The notes beneath the pieces were generated by a model, which was not told the DNA's origin, did no database searches, and saw only the letters and a program-made list of their open reading frames with translations. Below are positions 5,633-10,648 of a stretch of DNA of 42,078 nt, piece by piece (the first letter of the stretch is position 1; the number at the start of each line of letters is the position of its first letter). Location: the NCBI GenBank assembly GCA_016283355.1, contig JAEEMS010000017.1, forward strand, positions 1-42,078. The letters run 5' to 3'. The stretch is from Elusimicrobiaceae bacterium. GTDB taxonomy: Bacteria; Elusimicrobiota; Elusimicrobia; Elusimicrobiales; Elusimicrobiaceae. A program made the position numbers and the translations under genes.

Positions 5633-5661
5633 AACCGCCCTTGCAGTTAGCTAGAGCGGTT
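5633..5661 (-). terminator. Terminator of the flavoprotein operon
   Basis: AACCGC (5633-5638) pairs with GCGGTT (5656-5661). The minus-strand transcript then reads TTTTTTATGG. It lies 23 bp past the last gene of the operon. Confidence 0.7.
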
Positions 5662-5683: not shown

Positions 5684-6277
5684 TTATTCCATGGTTTGTG
5701 CCCAATACTTTAACTCTTCCACTGACGGGTTCCCATTTAAAACTTTGCCCGGTTTAATTTGGGCAATGGTGGCCACGCTCGGTTTTAAGTCCTCAGCGGT
5801 GTTTCCCATGCCGCTGCTGCCGGAAGTGGCAAACAGGACAATCTTTTTATTGGAAAAATCGTGTTTCTCTAAAAACGTTTTCACAATACGCGGAGCCGTA
5901 CCCCACCAAATCGGAAATCCAAGATAAATCACGTCATATTCTTTGACCGAAATATCATTTTCCGCCATTTCCGGACGGGAATTCTCATTACTCATCTCTA
6001 CTGAACTTCTGGACGTTTTATCACGCCAATTTAAATCGGCCGACGTGTAGGGAACGGCAGGTTTGATTTCATAGATATCCGCGTGAAGCGCTTTGGCCAG
6101 ATTTTCCGCTACTGTTTTAGTGGTTCCCGTGGCAGAAAAATACACCACTAATGCTTTTTGGGGGCTTAATGTAGGCACAGGTTGTGTCTCATTTTCGACA
6201 GTTACTTGTGGGGTAGGTTTAGTATGACACGCCGTAGCGAATAGTGCGGCCACTAAAAGTGTGAGTGTTTTTTTCAT
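5684..6277 (-). CDS. Flavodoxin-domain lipoprotein
   Basis: A 197-residue protein. Residues 1-17 form a lipoprotein signal ending in ATAC (Cys17), followed by a short Pro/Thr linker and a flavodoxin domain (about 40-195). The FMN phosphate loop is visible as YFSATGTTKTVAE, the strand plus loop as YDVIYLGFPIWWGTAP, and later FATSGSSGMGN. This is the Flavodoxin_4 type. Ordinary flavodoxins are cytoplasmic one-electron carriers; the signal predicts an envelope location, so its electron donor must also reach the periplasm. An AGGAG Shine-Dalgarno precedes ATG 6277. Last gene of the seven-gene operon. Confidence 0.88.
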   Translation of the reverse strand: MKKTLTLLVAALFATACHTKPTPQVTVENETQPVPTLSPQKALVVYFSATGTTKTVAENLAKALHADIYEIKPAVPYTSADLNWRDKTSRSSVEMSNENSRPEMAENDISVKEYDVIYLGFPIWWGTAPRIVKTFLEKHDFSNKKIVLFATSGSSGMGNTAEDLKPSVATIAQIKPGKVLNGNPSVEELKYWAQTME

Positions 6278-6285
6278 AGGTTCTC

Positions 6286-6909
6286 CTAGTTAATAAAATT
6301 CGTAAATTTTATCGGCTCATATTCCGGCTTATTGATGCCGTGTTTTTGGCCCAGTTCAATACATTTGAGTAACCACGCCATATTTTGTGCCAGTGTACGC
6401 ATGGTTTGCAAACCTTCTATATCTTTGCGTACATCTTCCGGGGTGAATCCGTGTACCATATTCCAATACTGGGATCCGACAATCTGCATATTGGTAATGG
6501 TAAAATACTTGTTCAACCGATCAAAAGAGGCCGTTGCGCCGCCTCTGCGGCAAGATACAACAGCTGCTGCTAACTTGCCGGCCATTTTCTTGGAATTAGA
6601 GAAAAACAGCCGATCACAAAATGAACAAAGTTGACCGGATGGCCCCGCATAATAAACAGGCGAGCCCAGCACGATGGCATCAAACTCATTTAATCGTGCG
6701 CCAATTTCATTGACGCCATCGGTATCAAACACGCATTTACCTGTTTCGCGGCATTTTCCGCAAGCAATACAGTTGGCAATCGGTTTTGTTCCAACGTGAA
6801 AAATTTCACTTTCAATACCGTTTTTTTTAAGAGTGTCGGCAATTTCACTCAGTGCCGTAAAGGTACATCCTTCTTTATGTGGACTTCCGTTAATGAGTAA
6901 TGCTTTCAT
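6286..6909 (-). CDS. NADPH-dependent FMN reductase / iron-sulfur flavoprotein
   Basis: A 207-residue cytoplasmic flavoprotein of the Isf/NADPH-FMN-reductase family. The FMN-binding loop near the N-terminus is LINGSPHKEGCTFTAL. A compact cysteine motif C-x2-C-x2-C-x5-C (CIACGKCRETGKC, about residues 47-59), as in iron-sulfur flavoproteins, predicts a [4Fe-4S] cluster. The segment IVLGSPVYYAGPSG is the second FMN-contacting loop. The family passes electrons between ferredoxin or NAD(P)H and flavin; the substrate here is unknown. The start lies 3 bp after the stop of the DUF362 gene. It is paralogous to the protein at 7877-8416, sharing the same cysteine spacing. Confidence 0.88.
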   Translation of the reverse strand: MKALLINGSPHKEGCTFTALSEIADTLKKNGIESEIFHVGTKPIANCIACGKCRETGKCVFDTDGVNEIGARLNEFDAIVLGSPVYYAGPSGQLCSFCDRLFFSNSKKMAGKLAAAVVSCRRGGATASFDRLNKYFTITNMQIVGSQYWNMVHGFTPEDVRKDIEGLQTMRTLAQNMAWLLKCIELGQKHGINKPEYEPIKFTNFIN

Positions 6910-6911
6910 AG

Positions 6912-7862
6912 TTATTTATCCATATCAACTAACGTATATTCGCCTGTTCCCATGCCCAGTTCTTTCATATAAGAAATTTGCCGGAGTCCTTCGCGTGATT
7001 CAATGCGTTCTTTTAAATCATGTCCTTCGTGTTCCGGCAAGGCGTATACTTGGTCAAGTGATGCTTGGTCTACGGCCATTAAATCTGTAGAGGCCAAAAT
7101 GCCAATATCGTGCGCTTTGGGCTCGGCAGCAGAAGTACCCGCGCAGTCACAATCAACCGACATACGGCGCAATACGTTGATATACACGATTTTCTTGCCG
7201 AAGTGGTCCACCGTGGCCTTGGCAGATTCCACCATATTCTCTTGGAAACGGGCGCCTGTATAACCCCATTGCTGATCGTCTTTTTGGTGAATCATCTTTT
7301 TACCGATTTTCCCATCTGCCATACCGATAGCAATGTTTTTCAAACTTCCGCCGTAACCACCCATAGTGTGCCCCTTAAAGTGCGTGAGTACAACAAGAGA
7401 ATCATAATTTAATATATGGCTTCCCATGGACATTTCTTTAAAGTGTTTACCGCCTTTGACAGGAAGCATAGCCGTACCGTCTTCATCCAGAATATCAACT
7501 TTGCTAAATGTCCAGCCATTTATCTTCAAAGTTTCGCGGTGACCTTCGGTGGTTTGGCGGGGGGAATCGTAAAACACGTTCGTTTCCACAAGCGTACTAT
7601 TGGGGATGTGCTCCCACAACGCTTTTACCATAGGTACCGGTAAAATGTTCGGGCCGTGCGGCTCACCCGTATGAAACTTGATAGCCACTTTACCGTCAAT
7701 GTTTGCGGAAATTTTATCGTAGATTTTGACTAATCCTTCCGGACTAATGTTCCGCGTGAAATACACCACAGGTTTGTTGGTAGATGCCTCTTGTACTTTA
7801 GAAGCATTTTGGCAAGCTGCCAATAGTATGGTTCCAAGTAATACTGAAAGTAATTTTTTCAT
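6912..7862 (-). CDS. DUF362-family lipoprotein
   Basis: A 316-residue protein with a textbook lipoprotein signal (lipobox LAAC). The body is DUF362, shown by VAIKFHTGEPHGPNILP near the N-terminus, LTHFKGHTMGGYGGSLKNIAIG in the middle, and SVDCDCAGTSAAEPKAHDIGILAS further on. The CDC pair is the only conserved cysteine motif, and the ferredoxin module found in many relatives is absent. The biochemical role of DUF362 is not established, although redox functions are suspected. The longer reading from an ATG at 7883 is unlikely, because AAAGGAGAT lies directly before the ATG at 7862. It sits between two Isf-type reductases in the operon. Confidence 0.87.
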   Translation of the reverse strand: MKKLLSVLLGTILLAACQNASKVQEASTNKPVVYFTRNISPEGLVKIYDKISANIDGKVAIKFHTGEPHGPNILPVPMVKALWEHIPNSTLVETNVFYDSPRQTTEGHRETLKINGWTFSKVDILDEDGTAMLPVKGGKHFKEMSMGSHILNYDSLVVLTHFKGHTMGGYGGSLKNIAIGMADGKIGKKMIHQKDDQQWGYTGARFQENMVESAKATVDHFGKKIVYINVLRRMSVDCDCAGTSAAEPKAHDIGILASTDLMAVDQASLDQVYALPEHEGHDLKERIESREGLRQISYMKELGMGTGEYTLVDMDK

Positions 7863-7876
7863 TATGTTATCTCCTT

Positions 7877-8416
7877 TTAGCATTTTTTGCCTATTTCATA
7901 CGCTTTTTTATAGACGGGCAATTCCTTTACTTCGCCAACTTGCCAGGCACCCGTACCGTAAATAATGCCTTTCTCTTTAGTGCCTTCCAGGCAATCCCGC
8001 GTAAAGCCGCGCAGCCCTTCGATTGTGGGGGCTAAATTGTTTTTGTCGGTATCGGCGGCGGACACAATAAAATAGACGTCCTTATTGGAAATTTCCGTAT
8101 ATCGGGACACACAACGGTCAATGAACGTCTTTAATTGTGCGTCCATGGTATAGAAATAAACGGGAGTAGCCAGCACAATTACATCGGCTTCCACCATTTT
8201 ATCCAATAATGCTTTCATATCATCTTTTTGTACACATTTATGCGTATTATTGCACACACCGCAACCCAAACAGTAATTAATTTTATGATTACGCAAAAAG
8301 ATTTTTTCTACATTATGCCCGGCCTCTTTGGCACCTAATAGAAATTGGTCACACAACAAGTCGGAATTGCCCCCTTTGCGAGGCGAAGCAGATATAATTA
8401 ACACTTTTTTAGTCAT
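7877..8416 (-). CDS. NADPH-dependent FMN reductase / iron-sulfur flavoprotein
   Basis: About 179 residues, cytoplasmic. FMN loop IISASPRKGGNSD, then a C-x2-C-x2-C-x5-C motif (CLGCGVCNNTHKC) for a probable [4Fe-4S] cluster, then IVLATPVYFYTMDAQLKTFIDR. This is the Isf-like flavin reductase family. The start at 8416 is chosen because TAGGAGAAAAT precedes it; the alternative ATG at 8443 would overlap the upstream gene and lacks that support. It is the second copy of this family in the operon, so the two may form different redox pairs with the exported flavodoxins and DUF362 protein. Confidence 0.87.
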   Translation of the reverse strand: MTKKVLIISASPRKGGNSDLLCDQFLLGAKEAGHNVEKIFLRNHKINYCLGCGVCNNTHKCVQKDDMKALLDKMVEADVIVLATPVYFYTMDAQLKTFIDRCVSRYTEISNKDVYFIVSAADTDKNNLAPTIEGLRGFTRDCLEGTKEKGIIYGTGAWQVGEVKELPVYKKAYEIGKKC

Positions 8417-8424
8417 ATTTTCTC

Positions 8425-9039
8425 CTATAAATTGTTTAACCAATGCACAATTTTGTTGTGTACGGCTTGGTTATATTCAGGGCCGACATTATTAAAATCG
8501 GCATAAGTGCCCACTTGGGCTTTTTTGGCATTGGTGGTCAAATCCTTTAAAAATGTCCCAGGGTTACTGCCTTGCGTGGAAAAGGGGATTACTTTTTTAT
8601 TTTTAAAGTCCATTTGGCTCAGAAAGGAATACATCGGGGTTGCCATCGTGTACCACCATACCGGGGCGCCTACAAATACGACGTCATAATTGCTCACGTC
8701 GGGCAAGTTACTGGCCAGTGCAGGATAAATTTTGTTGTTTAATTCTTTCTTAATGCGTGCATAAAAAGCCGGAGAACTTTTAAATTCTTCCTGCGTTTGG
8801 ATGCGGTACATATCGCCCTTTGTAAGGGCCGCGATTTGCTCGGCAATATCTTGCGTATGTCCCGTCCAAGAATAATAAACAACAAGCACTTTGCCCAAAT
8901 TGGCGGTATACGTTTTCACCTGTGCAAAAGCGGCCAATTCCTTTTTATTCTTATAAGCAACTTTTAACTGATGCACAAGGGCGCAAATACCCCCGATCAC
9001 TGCCAATACAAGCAAGACAACCAGTATCTTTTTAATCAT
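8425..9039 (-). CDS. Membrane-anchored flavodoxin-domain protein
   Basis: A 204-residue protein. One N-terminal membrane segment (about 4-24, no lipobox and no clear cleavage site) is followed by a short linker and a flavodoxin domain (about 50-203). The FMN loop is YYSWTGHTQDIAEQ; the second loop is YDVVFVGAPVWWYTMATP, and FSTQGSNPGTF follows. The N-in anchor predicts a domain on the periplasmic face. It is related to, but clearly different from, the flavodoxin lipoprotein at 5684-6277. It sits between the MerR gene (8 bp gap) and an Isf-type reductase. Confidence 0.87.
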   Translation of the reverse strand: MIKKILVVLLVLAVIGGICALVHQLKVAYKNKKELAAFAQVKTYTANLGKVLVVYYSWTGHTQDIAEQIAALTKGDMYRIQTQEEFKSSPAFYARIKKELNNKIYPALASNLPDVSNYDVVFVGAPVWWYTMATPMYSFLSQMDFKNKKVIPFSTQGSNPGTFLKDLTTNAKKAQVGTYADFNNVGPEYNQAVHNKIVHWLNNL

Positions 9040-9047
9040 ATTTTCTC

Positions 9048-9425
9048 CTAGAATTTAAGTTCTTTATCTTTAGAAGCAATTGCCTTGTCATAAACGGAGA
9101 TTTTATAATCTAACCGTTTAAGCGTGTCTTGCAGTTCTACAAACCGTTCTTGCAAGGCCTTACGTTCGGTAGCCAACAACTCACGTCTAGCTTTAAGCGT
9201 GCGTTTGCCACACTTAAAGAGTTCAAAATACTTTTTTAATACTTCGATGGAAAGCCCCGCGCTACGCATACATTTAACAAATTCGATGCGTGTACAATCT
9301 TCTTCCGTATAATTACGTACCCCGCCTTCCGTACGGTTGACGTAAGGAATTAGTCCTTCCTTTTCGTAATAACGCAACGTATCGGCAGAAATTTGATATT
9401 TTTTACTTACTTCTGCAATGGTCAT
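9048..9425 (-). CDS. MerR-family regulator, AdhR/NmlR-like with Cys52
   Basis: A 125-residue MerR regulator. The winged helix-turn-helix covers residues 1-70 (TIAEVSKKYQISADTLRYYEKEGL) and a dimerisation coiled coil covers about 80-118. It lacks the C-terminal metal-binding cysteines of MerR/CueR proteins. It has Cys44 and Cys52, the latter in FVKCMRSAGLSI. In the AdhR/NmlR subgroup a cysteine at position 52-54 senses aldehydes or other electrophiles. The ATG overlaps the dehydrogenase stop (TAATG), so the two are co-translated. It probably controls its own operon through the promoter at 10618-10648. Confidence 0.9.
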   Translation of the reverse strand: MTIAEVSKKYQISADTLRYYEKEGLIPYVNRTEGGVRNYTEEDCTRIEFVKCMRSAGLSIEVLKKYFELFKCGKRTLKARRELLATERKALQERFVELQDTLKRLDYKISVYDKAIASKDKELKF

Positions 9426-10591
9426 TATAAACTCTCCTTGAAGATTTGTACAATCTCAGGGCGTTCAAGCACTTTATAACCGCCTTTTAAAATAAGCGTA
9501 GCATCAGCTATACCTTCTATCATTTCGGGCGTGGCTCCCAATTCGCTGATTTTTAAAGTTAGTCCGATTTTTTTCATCCATGCTTCCAATTTAGCAAGTC
9601 CTTCATTTGCTATTTGTTCATCCGTTTTGCCGTCATTGTTTACACCCCACACATTGATTGCAAAGCGTTTGAATTTAGCAATTCCATAAGGCATGATATG
9701 TCGGTAATAGGGCAAGGATACCGCTGCTAATGTCATGCCGTGTGTGGCGTCCGTATAAGCGCCCACCGCTTGGCCCAGCATATGTACCATCCAGTCTGTG
9801 GTCTTCCCTTTGGCAATTAAGGTATTTAGGGCCCAAGTAGCGCACCACATAATATTAGAGCGTGCTTCGTAATCTTGCGGATTTTCAACAGCAATTAAAG
9901 AACTGTGAATGACCGAACGCATAAGGCCTTCGGCTAAATAATCGCTGGTGTTATCGTCGGTGCCAGAAAAATATTGTTCGCAGATGTGGTTAAAAATATC
10001 ATAGATGCCGGCTACCATTTGTTTGTGTGGAAGCGTAAAGGTAAATTTGGGGTTTAAAATGGCAAACTTGGGCATTACTTCTTCCCCAAATACATGACCA
10101 ATTTTTAGGTGTTTTTCGTGATTGGTAATCACAGAACCGCCGTTCATTTCCGATCCTGTACCCACCATGGTCAGCACACACCCGACGGGAAGTATTTTGC
10201 AAGAGGGTTCTTCAAAGCGGATAAAATATTTTTCCCAAGGGTCCTCATTGCAATGAACAGAAACGGAAACCGCTTTGGCATAATCACAGCAGGAGCCGCC
10301 GCCTACCGCTAAGAGAAAATCCACGTTATGCTTGCGGGCAATTTCTATACCTTCTTTGAGTTTTTCGGTGGTGGGGTTAGGCATTACGCCACCGTCCTCC
10401 ACAATTTCTTTACCGTTGTCTTTTAGAATTTTAACGACCAACTCATAAATCCCATTCTTTTTAATAGAACCGCCGCCGTAGATAAGTTGTACGGTTTTGC
10501 CGTATTTCGGGAGTTCCTTGTTTAAATTTTGCAGGGCATCTTCCCCGAAGTAAAGTTTGGTAGGGTTGGCATAGGTAAAGTTTCCTAACAT
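9425..10591 (-). CDS. Iron-containing alcohol dehydrogenase, YqhD/BdhA type
   Basis: A 388-residue cytoplasmic group III metal-dependent alcohol dehydrogenase. The segment YGGGSIKKNGIY (38-49) matches the NADPH-selective loop of YqhD, and VGGGSCCDYAKAV (96-108) is the dinucleotide region. Metal ligands fit Asp198, His202, His270 and His284, one in each expected motif (GIYDIFNH, WMVHMLGQAVGAYTDATHG). YqhD-type enzymes reduce a broad range of aldehydes, including butanal, methylglyoxal and lipid aldehydes, with NADPH. First gene of the operon, with AAGGAG before ATG 10591 and a MerR-style promoter upstream. Aldehyde detoxification is the likely role. Confidence 0.93.
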   Translation of the reverse strand: MLGNFTYANPTKLYFGEDALQNLNKELPKYGKTVQLIYGGGSIKKNGIYELVVKILKDNGKEIVEDGGVMPNPTTEKLKEGIEIARKHNVDFLLAVGGGSCCDYAKAVSVSVHCNEDPWEKYFIRFEEPSCKILPVGCVLTMVGTGSEMNGGSVITNHEKHLKIGHVFGEEVMPKFAILNPKFTFTLPHKQMVAGIYDIFNHICEQYFSGTDDNTSDYLAEGLMRSVIHSSLIAVENPQDYEARSNIMWCATWALNTLIAKGKTTDWMVHMLGQAVGAYTDATHGMTLAAVSLPYYRHIMPYGIAKFKRFAINVWGVNNDGKTDEQIANEGLAKLEAWMKKIGLTLKISELGATPEMIEGIADATLILKGGYKVLERPEIVQIFKESL

Positions 10592-10617
10592 AATACGCTC
10601 CTTAAGTGAGATACTAT

Positions 10618-10648
10618 ATTGTAGCAGTTGGAGTGAACTTTAAGTCAA
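10618..10648 (-). promoter_or_regulatory. MerR-type promoter/operator of the dehydrogenase-flavoprotein operon
   Basis: On the minus strand: -35 TTGACT (10648-10643), a 19-bp spacer, and -10 TACAAT (10623-10618) with an extended TGC. A 19-bp spacer is the mark of promoters activated by MerR proteins. The spacer holds a dyad, TTGGAGTGAACTTTAA at 10628-10643, with half-sites TTRRAGT and ACTYYAA. The start codon follows at 10591 after a leader of about 20 nt with AAGGAG. Confidence 0.75.

Follow-up and report, generated by a model that had tools for sequence, protein, structure and literature searches.

A MerR-type promoter conserved with nmlR in Elusimicrobiaceae, the probable switch of an autoregulated NmlR/AdhR-type operon

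The promoter, the operon and its regulator

As shown in Table 1, the analysed stretch of DNA (42,078 nucleotides of an Elusimicrobiaceae bacterium, referred to below as the window) carries on its minus strand a MerR-type promoter followed by seven genes that are separated by gaps of no more than 14 bp, in the order adh, nmlR, flavodoxin, FMN reductase, DUF362, FMN reductase, flavodoxin. The ATG of nmlR overlaps the stop codon of adh (TAATG).

Table 1. Features of the nmlR operon and its promoter in the window.
Feature	Position	Strand	Basis or sequence
MerR-type promoter	10618..10648	-	reads TTGACTTAAAGTTCACTCCAACTGCTACAAT
Promoter -35	10643-10648	-	TTGACT
Promoter spacer, exactly 19 bp	10624-10642	-	TAAAGTTCACTCCAACTGC
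Promoter -10	10618-10623	-	TACAAT
Operator dyad, 5/7 pairs matched	10628..10643	-	TTAAAGT-TC-ACTCCAA
Shine-Dalgarno-like AAGGAG, ahead of adh ATG	10598..10603	-	sequence
adh, iron-containing alcohol/aldehyde reductase, YqhD/butanol-dehydrogenase group	9425..10591	-	PF00465 2.7e-44; PDB YqhD 1oj7 1.9e-66, 7w9x 2.3e-83
nmlR, MerR regulator of 125 aa, Cys44/52/72	9048..9425	-	profile and structure matches
Flavodoxin-like protein (Flavodoxin_4), N-terminal hydrophobic stretch	8425..9039	-	domain match; stretch from sequence
NADPH-dependent FMN reductase family protein	7877..8416	-	domain match
DUF362 protein, lipoprotein-like N-terminus	6912..7862	-	domain match; N-terminus from sequence
Second FMN reductase family protein	6286..6909	-	domain match
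Second Flavodoxin_4 protein, lipoprotein-like N-terminus	5684..6277	-	domain match; N-terminus from sequence
Terminator-like stem-loop 3′ of the last gene	5633..5648	-	pattern match

The initial annotation had read TTGACT, exactly 19 bp and TACAAT at this place, and the same arrangement was recovered on the minus strand as a unique match: the pattern composed of these elements occurs once in the window (none in 100 shuffles) and once in the 1.4-Mb genome (reversed control 0). The separation of 19 bp lies within the 19–20 bp of MerR-type activated promoters. A genome search for TTGACTTRRAGTNNACTYYAA with up to three mismatches found this place alone, whereas the reversed control gave three matches, so that at this tolerance the pattern alone does not discriminate. 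An overlapping 17-bp sigma-70 promoter was ruled out, since a consensus scan with spacers of 16–18 bp gave none at the site. The spacer ends in TGC directly 5′ of the -10 box, an extended -10 form. Transcription would start near position 10611, giving adh a predicted leader of about 20 nt.

The dyad begins at the last base of the -35 box and its centre lies 7 bp from that box, within the 7–8 bp looked for in MerR-type spacers; a centre at 7 bp is reported for CueR/CadR-type sites and at 8 bp for MerR sites (PMC5045206). The operator had been called complete. A dyad is indeed present in the 19-bp spacer, but two of its seven pairs are unmatched, which the IUPAC form TTRRAGT-N2-ACTYYAA conceals, and “complete” is therefore too strong. 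Since about 1.4% of random 14-letter draws reach five or more matched pairs by chance, the dyad of the window is weak when taken alone, and it is conservation that carries the case.

The adh product is assigned to the YqhD group but not as a YqhD equivalog, its score against NCBIfam PRK15138 being 265 bits with a cut-off of 645. Its closest solved relatives are 7w9x, 1vlj and 1oj7; because it matches YqhD as well as structures that bear the name NADH-dependent butanol dehydrogenase, its coenzyme may be either NADPH or NADH. At the other end of the operon, hairpin matches in the region are about as numerous as in shuffles (7 against 6.8 expected), and the terminator-like stem-loop is supported by its position alone.

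The second gene had been predicted to encode a MerR protein with a cysteine at position 52, and this proved correct; cysteines are found at positions 44, 52 and 72. The protein scores 131 bits against the NmlR model (next best CueR, 62), which at E ≤ 0.001 matches nothing else in the genome. This score is below the NCBIfam NmlR equivalog cut-off of 175 bits, which none of 14 control genomes passes, B. subtilis included (nine match below it); the cut-off was therefore treated as narrower than the NmlR/AdhR clade. Membership of that clade, without a claim to the NCBI equivalog, is supported for the predicted protein, a short winged helix of 125 aa (PF13411, PF00376, PF09278) that has no C-terminal sensor domain and is matched over residues 2–117 by structures of H. 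influenzae NmlR (HiNmlR).

The proposal that Cys52 occupies the sensing position of AdhR/NmlR-type regulators is supported by the alignment, in which all 63 orthologues (53 from the window's family and 10 from a distant one, described below) have this residue and it corresponds to Cys54 of HiNmlR (5d8c). In a review (PMC4776306) the clade cysteine, Cys54 or Cys52, is described as absolutely conserved and needed for the response to formaldehyde, and the C52A variant of AdhR as giving no adhA transcript upon formaldehyde challenge. Cys44 is present in 53 of the 63 orthologues, namely in all those of the window's family and in none of the distant one. Cys72 was considered as the counterpart of the second reactive cysteine of HiNmlR, given as C71 (PMC9938897), and was rejected: it occurs in the window protein alone among the 63 orthologues and lies outside that alignment column, in which C71 aligns with Leu69.

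Conservation of the site together with nmlR

The distribution of the site was examined in 294 genomes of the phylum, sampled from a larger group, of which 79 (the window's own included) belong to the window's family. Orthologues of nmlR (E ≤ 1e-12) were identified in 63 of these genomes: 53 in the window's family and 10 in the distant family f15. It had been stated in advance that the reading would fall if orthologous operons lacked the dyad and the 19-bp spacer upstream; both are present in each of the 53 nmlR-containing genomes of the family. The site agrees exactly with the degenerate pattern in 51 of them and deviates by one -35 letter in two (loci L045 and L092). It is located directly 5′ of nmlR in 46 genomes and before an adh gene preceding nmlR in seven. 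The name “YqhD operon” given in the initial annotation holds insofar as the first gene of the window's operon falls in the YqhD group, but it is loose, and “nmlR operon” should be preferred, because adh heads the operon in just these 7 of 53 genomes whereas nmlR is constant. Among close relatives (loci L065–L080) the gene order 3′ of nmlR is strongly shuffled and the promoter is kept.

The degenerate site was found in 62 of the 294 genomes (53 nmlR-positive and 6 nmlR-negative members of the family, and 3 of f15), and the reversed control in none. Within the family it is present in 53/53 genomes with nmlR versus 6/26 without (Fisher p ~9e-14, a value to be read with the caveats that sites already seen had served to draw up the pattern and that related genomes are not independent). 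In three of the six genomes with a site but no nmlR found (G195, G234 and G255), the site lies 67–395 bp from a contig end, so that the gene after it is truncated or absent; the other three (G215, G237 and G249) are 82–85% complete genomes and constitute unexplained exceptions.

This co-occurrence also bears on which protein uses the site. The genome encodes a second MerR_1 protein (114 aa, C3:74429-74635), which might in principle be its user. However, the NmlR model does not match this protein at E ≤ 0.001 and the site tracks nmlR itself over 53 genomes, which makes the use of the site by another MerR-family protein of the cell very unlikely.

In f15, eight of the ten genomes contain a more distant nmlR homologue without the site. 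The site is present in the remaining two (G026 and G125), in each of which one copy is divergent from the regulator gene and 105–208 bp upstream of it, and a further genome (G133) has a site but no nmlR homologue. Since the site accompanies just two of the ten homologues and also occurs in G133 without one, a different operator may serve most of the f15 homologues.

Spacing was analysed in the window and in the 62 loci that had been selected by protein; this set replaced all loci, as fetching with the pattern favours 19 bp. TAnnnT follows 19 bp after the -35 box in 76 of 78 matches of the -35 and dyad motif. It is also seen at 21 bp (31 matches), 24 bp (21) and 16 bp (8), largely because the -10 box continues into TA-rich DNA. 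In the same loci the reversed -35 and dyad motif had no match.

Among the 51 pattern-matching promoters, mean identity is 79% over the 31-bp site, for which the pattern itself selects, 32% over the 40 bp upstream and 40% over the 15 bp downstream. Taken alone, the imperfect dyad of the window, with its frequency of about 1.4% in random draws, would allow a chance resemblance to a MerR promoter. This explanation was rejected on the basis of conservation, reversed controls (0/294 genomes for the pattern) and uniqueness in the genome, and with the site kept while its flanks diverge it is considered extremely improbable.

The consensus dyad of the relatives is TTGGAGT-N2-ACTCCAA; the window has a weaker form, its A8A9 being shared by 19 of 140 distinct sites. 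Covariation of the half-sites was evaluated as proof of dyad recognition and was dropped: in the 140 distinct sites the variable pairs showed no clear excess over shuffles, the best pair (8–19) being matched in 82/140 against a shuffled mean of 74.9, with 147 of 2000 shuffles as high.

A proposed electrophile switch and its signal

The comparative tests (site in 53/53 genomes, TAnnnT in 76/78 matches, Cys52 in 63/63 orthologues) support the autoregulation, the regulator type and the site layout that had been predicted. The site is thus very probably both promoter and operator of an NmlR/AdhR-type operon that regulates itself and is switched by electrophiles through Cys52 and spacer untwisting. 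The site, its spacing, its conservation with nmlR, Cys52 and the layout of the operon are read from the DNA itself, and the steps set out below, with mechanism and inducer taken from characterised relatives, are conditional on that analogy.

An NmlR dimer would bind the dyad in the over-long 19-bp spacer and keep the promoter in a shape unfavourable to RNA polymerase, so that expression of its own operon would stay low. Modification of Cys52, in helix alpha-3, by a reactive electrophile would then kink the dimer and untwist the spacer, so that the -35 and -10 boxes would be aligned as in a 17-bp promoter. The seven genes from adh to the second flavodoxin would be activated as one transcription unit, and their products would reduce reactive carbonyls or quinones, the enzyme chemistry and substrates being likewise putative. 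MerR regulators are described as binding a palindrome in a 19–20-bp spacer which, when triggered, is shortened and untwisted to mimic a 17-bp promoter, and crystals of ligand-bound family members on DNA, NmlR among them, are reported to show the distortion (PMC9909328). The 19-bp mer promoter is reported not to be activated without MerR, and its 17–18-bp variants to be generally constitutive (PMC11049809).

The extended -10 form allows a different reading, namely that TGC-TACAAT acts mainly as an extended -10 promoter at which the bound MerR protein only represses, without activation by untwisting. The TG one base before the -10 box is shared by the window and 50 of the 140 distinct sites, and the adh copy of genome G154 (L322) retains its leader and TGCTACAAT, including the -10 box, where a terminator replaces the -35 box and dyad. 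Against this, 90 of the 140 distinct sites have no TG at that position, and 76/78 matches keep the -35 box with its 19-bp spacing, features that are dispensable for an extended -10 promoter. Repression only is therefore regarded as unlikely, and untwisting activation is retained as the preferred mechanism, with the reservation that the TG could give basal activity without the regulator.

The class of inducer is likewise proposed by analogy with AdhR/NmlR of other bacteria, with formaldehyde, methylglyoxal, glyoxal, quinones and disulfide stress all as candidates. Flavodoxin and FMN-reductase proteins, of which the operon encodes four, are more typical of quinone or redox chemistry. The signal could thus be disulfide or oxidative stress, quinones or a metal ion rather than a carbonyl electrophile, with regulator and promoter acting as described above. 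Gonococcal NmlR has been linked to thiol/disulfide stress in a review (PMC4776306), and the B. subtilis AdhR regulon is reported to respond to allicin (PMC6943732). On the other hand, a YqhD-group reductase heads the operon of the window, and AdhR of B. subtilis is described as answering to methylglyoxal and formaldehyde (PMC4776306). A non-carbonyl signal is accordingly held to be possible but the less probable choice, and a carbonyl electrophile is preferred.

Genes headed by the site and related systems

In total 155 sites were analysed; they come from the window, 62 loci centred on nmlR and 75 centred on other sites, and the counts are a lower bound. An ORF begins 15–156 bp downstream on the same strand at 153 of these sites (within 60 bp at 142), and the other two lie at contig ends. 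The first genes, identified by mechanical gene calls and named after one representative of each family or the window's member, are nmlR (44), carboxymuconolactone decarboxylase (25), alpha/beta hydrolase (18), DUF362 (14), adh (10), flavodoxin (8), TM1506/DUF1893 (8), cupin (7), FMN reductase (6), aldo/keto reductase (3), DXS-like (3) and others (7). No AdhC-type zinc dehydrogenase was present among the annotated families (148 of the 153 first genes, one representative per family). The -10 box reads TATACT before 8/8 TM1506 genes and 17/25 decarboxylase genes, and TACAAT before 26/44 nmlR and 10/14 DUF362 genes. The genome of the window has a single site.

These observations raise the idea that a single NmlR controls an extensive and modular reductive-stress regulon, in which genes are shuffled under copies of one 31-bp promoter and -10 variants set the strength of each unit. 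Its members would comprise nmlR, the YqhD-group reductase, aldo/keto reductase, carboxymuconolactone decarboxylase, alpha/beta hydrolase, cupin, flavodoxins, FMN reductases, DUF362, TM1506-type (DUF1893) proteins and a deoxyxylulose-phosphate-synthase-like enzyme; we give this proposal an even chance of being right.

A deoxyxylulose-phosphate-synthase-like gene (DXP_synthase_N 1.3e-85 for the representative) is found under NmlR-type sites both as first gene (L151, L152 and L194) and within nmlR operons (L034, L035, L037, L042, L044 and L093).

Orthologues of adh (E ≤ 1e-100) were identified in 16 of the 294 genomes. Twelve of these belong to the window's family, and in ten of the twelve adh lies in a site-headed operon. 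The others are the copy of G154 described above and that of G286 (L317), in which the spacing, the -10 box and the leader are kept but the -35 box and half-sites are degraded, and where no nmlR was found (genome 79% complete). These two copies constitute natural operator-less variants. In the four genomes outside the family the site pattern is absent. The adh gene of locus L072 (G243:C25:39296-40459), under a conserved site, contains one in-frame TAG.

Beyond the phylum, the pattern TTGACTTRGAGTNNACTCYAA-N4-TAYAAT, a stricter version of the consensus, was found in at least 118 stretches of genome records, and most of 80 record titles name Bacillota. Among the matches listed (118 stretches of up to 8 kb each), an NmlR-like gene is present in 76, as the first downstream gene in 38, and was not found in 42; in 23 of all 118 stretches it is divergent and lies no more than 500 bp from the site. 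The occurrence of the site in Bacillota indicates that the operator is a general property of the regulator clade and no invention of this lineage. While the operator is alike in Bacillota genomes, their gene content is unlike that of the window's operon.

Several characterised systems resemble the one described here. AdhR (YraB) of B. subtilis, likewise a MerR regulator, has its Cys52 in the same register and is described as activating an aldehyde-detoxifying dehydrogenase and a carboxymuconolactone decarboxylase, the latter also found in the window's relatives (PMC4776306, PMC11577753). However, the thiol-dependent AdhA and YraA of its regulon are both absent from the window's operon, which contains a YqhD-group reductase, flavodoxins, FMN reductases and DUF362 instead. 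NmlR of H. influenzae and Neisseria is, like that of the window, a short MerR protein reported to have no recognisable C-terminal sensor region (PMC9938897), and its gene also adjoins a dehydrogenase gene; it is described as divergent from adhC-estD (PMC4776306), whereas nmlR of the window lies inside its operon. The Tn501/Tn21 mer promoter shares the 19-bp spacer and a dyad adjoining the -35 box (PMC11049809), but it is served by a metal-sensing MerR, with another dyad sequence whose centre is given at 8 bp (PMC5045206), compared with 7 bp in the window.

The kind of switch is thus known, and the set of genes apparently controlled by it in this lineage seems to be the new detail. In the titles and abstract openings of the open-licence papers listed we saw neither a published regulon for this gut/rumen lineage nor a MerR regulator with this gene set, and a text search with the operator half-site gave, among the matches listed, titles unrelated to the regulator. 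The lineage gains a regulator, an operator and a testable list of targets, and proteins whose role is unclear (DUF362, flavodoxin, FMN reductase) are connected with what is likely a response to electrophiles or redox stress.

Finally, adh copies with 76% identity lie beside NmlR homologues in Kandleria vitulina and Eubacterium uniforme (L266 and L268), which suggests transfer of adh between Bacillota and this lineage. In K. vitulina the site, the NmlR homologue and adh are located on one strand within about 2.5 kb.
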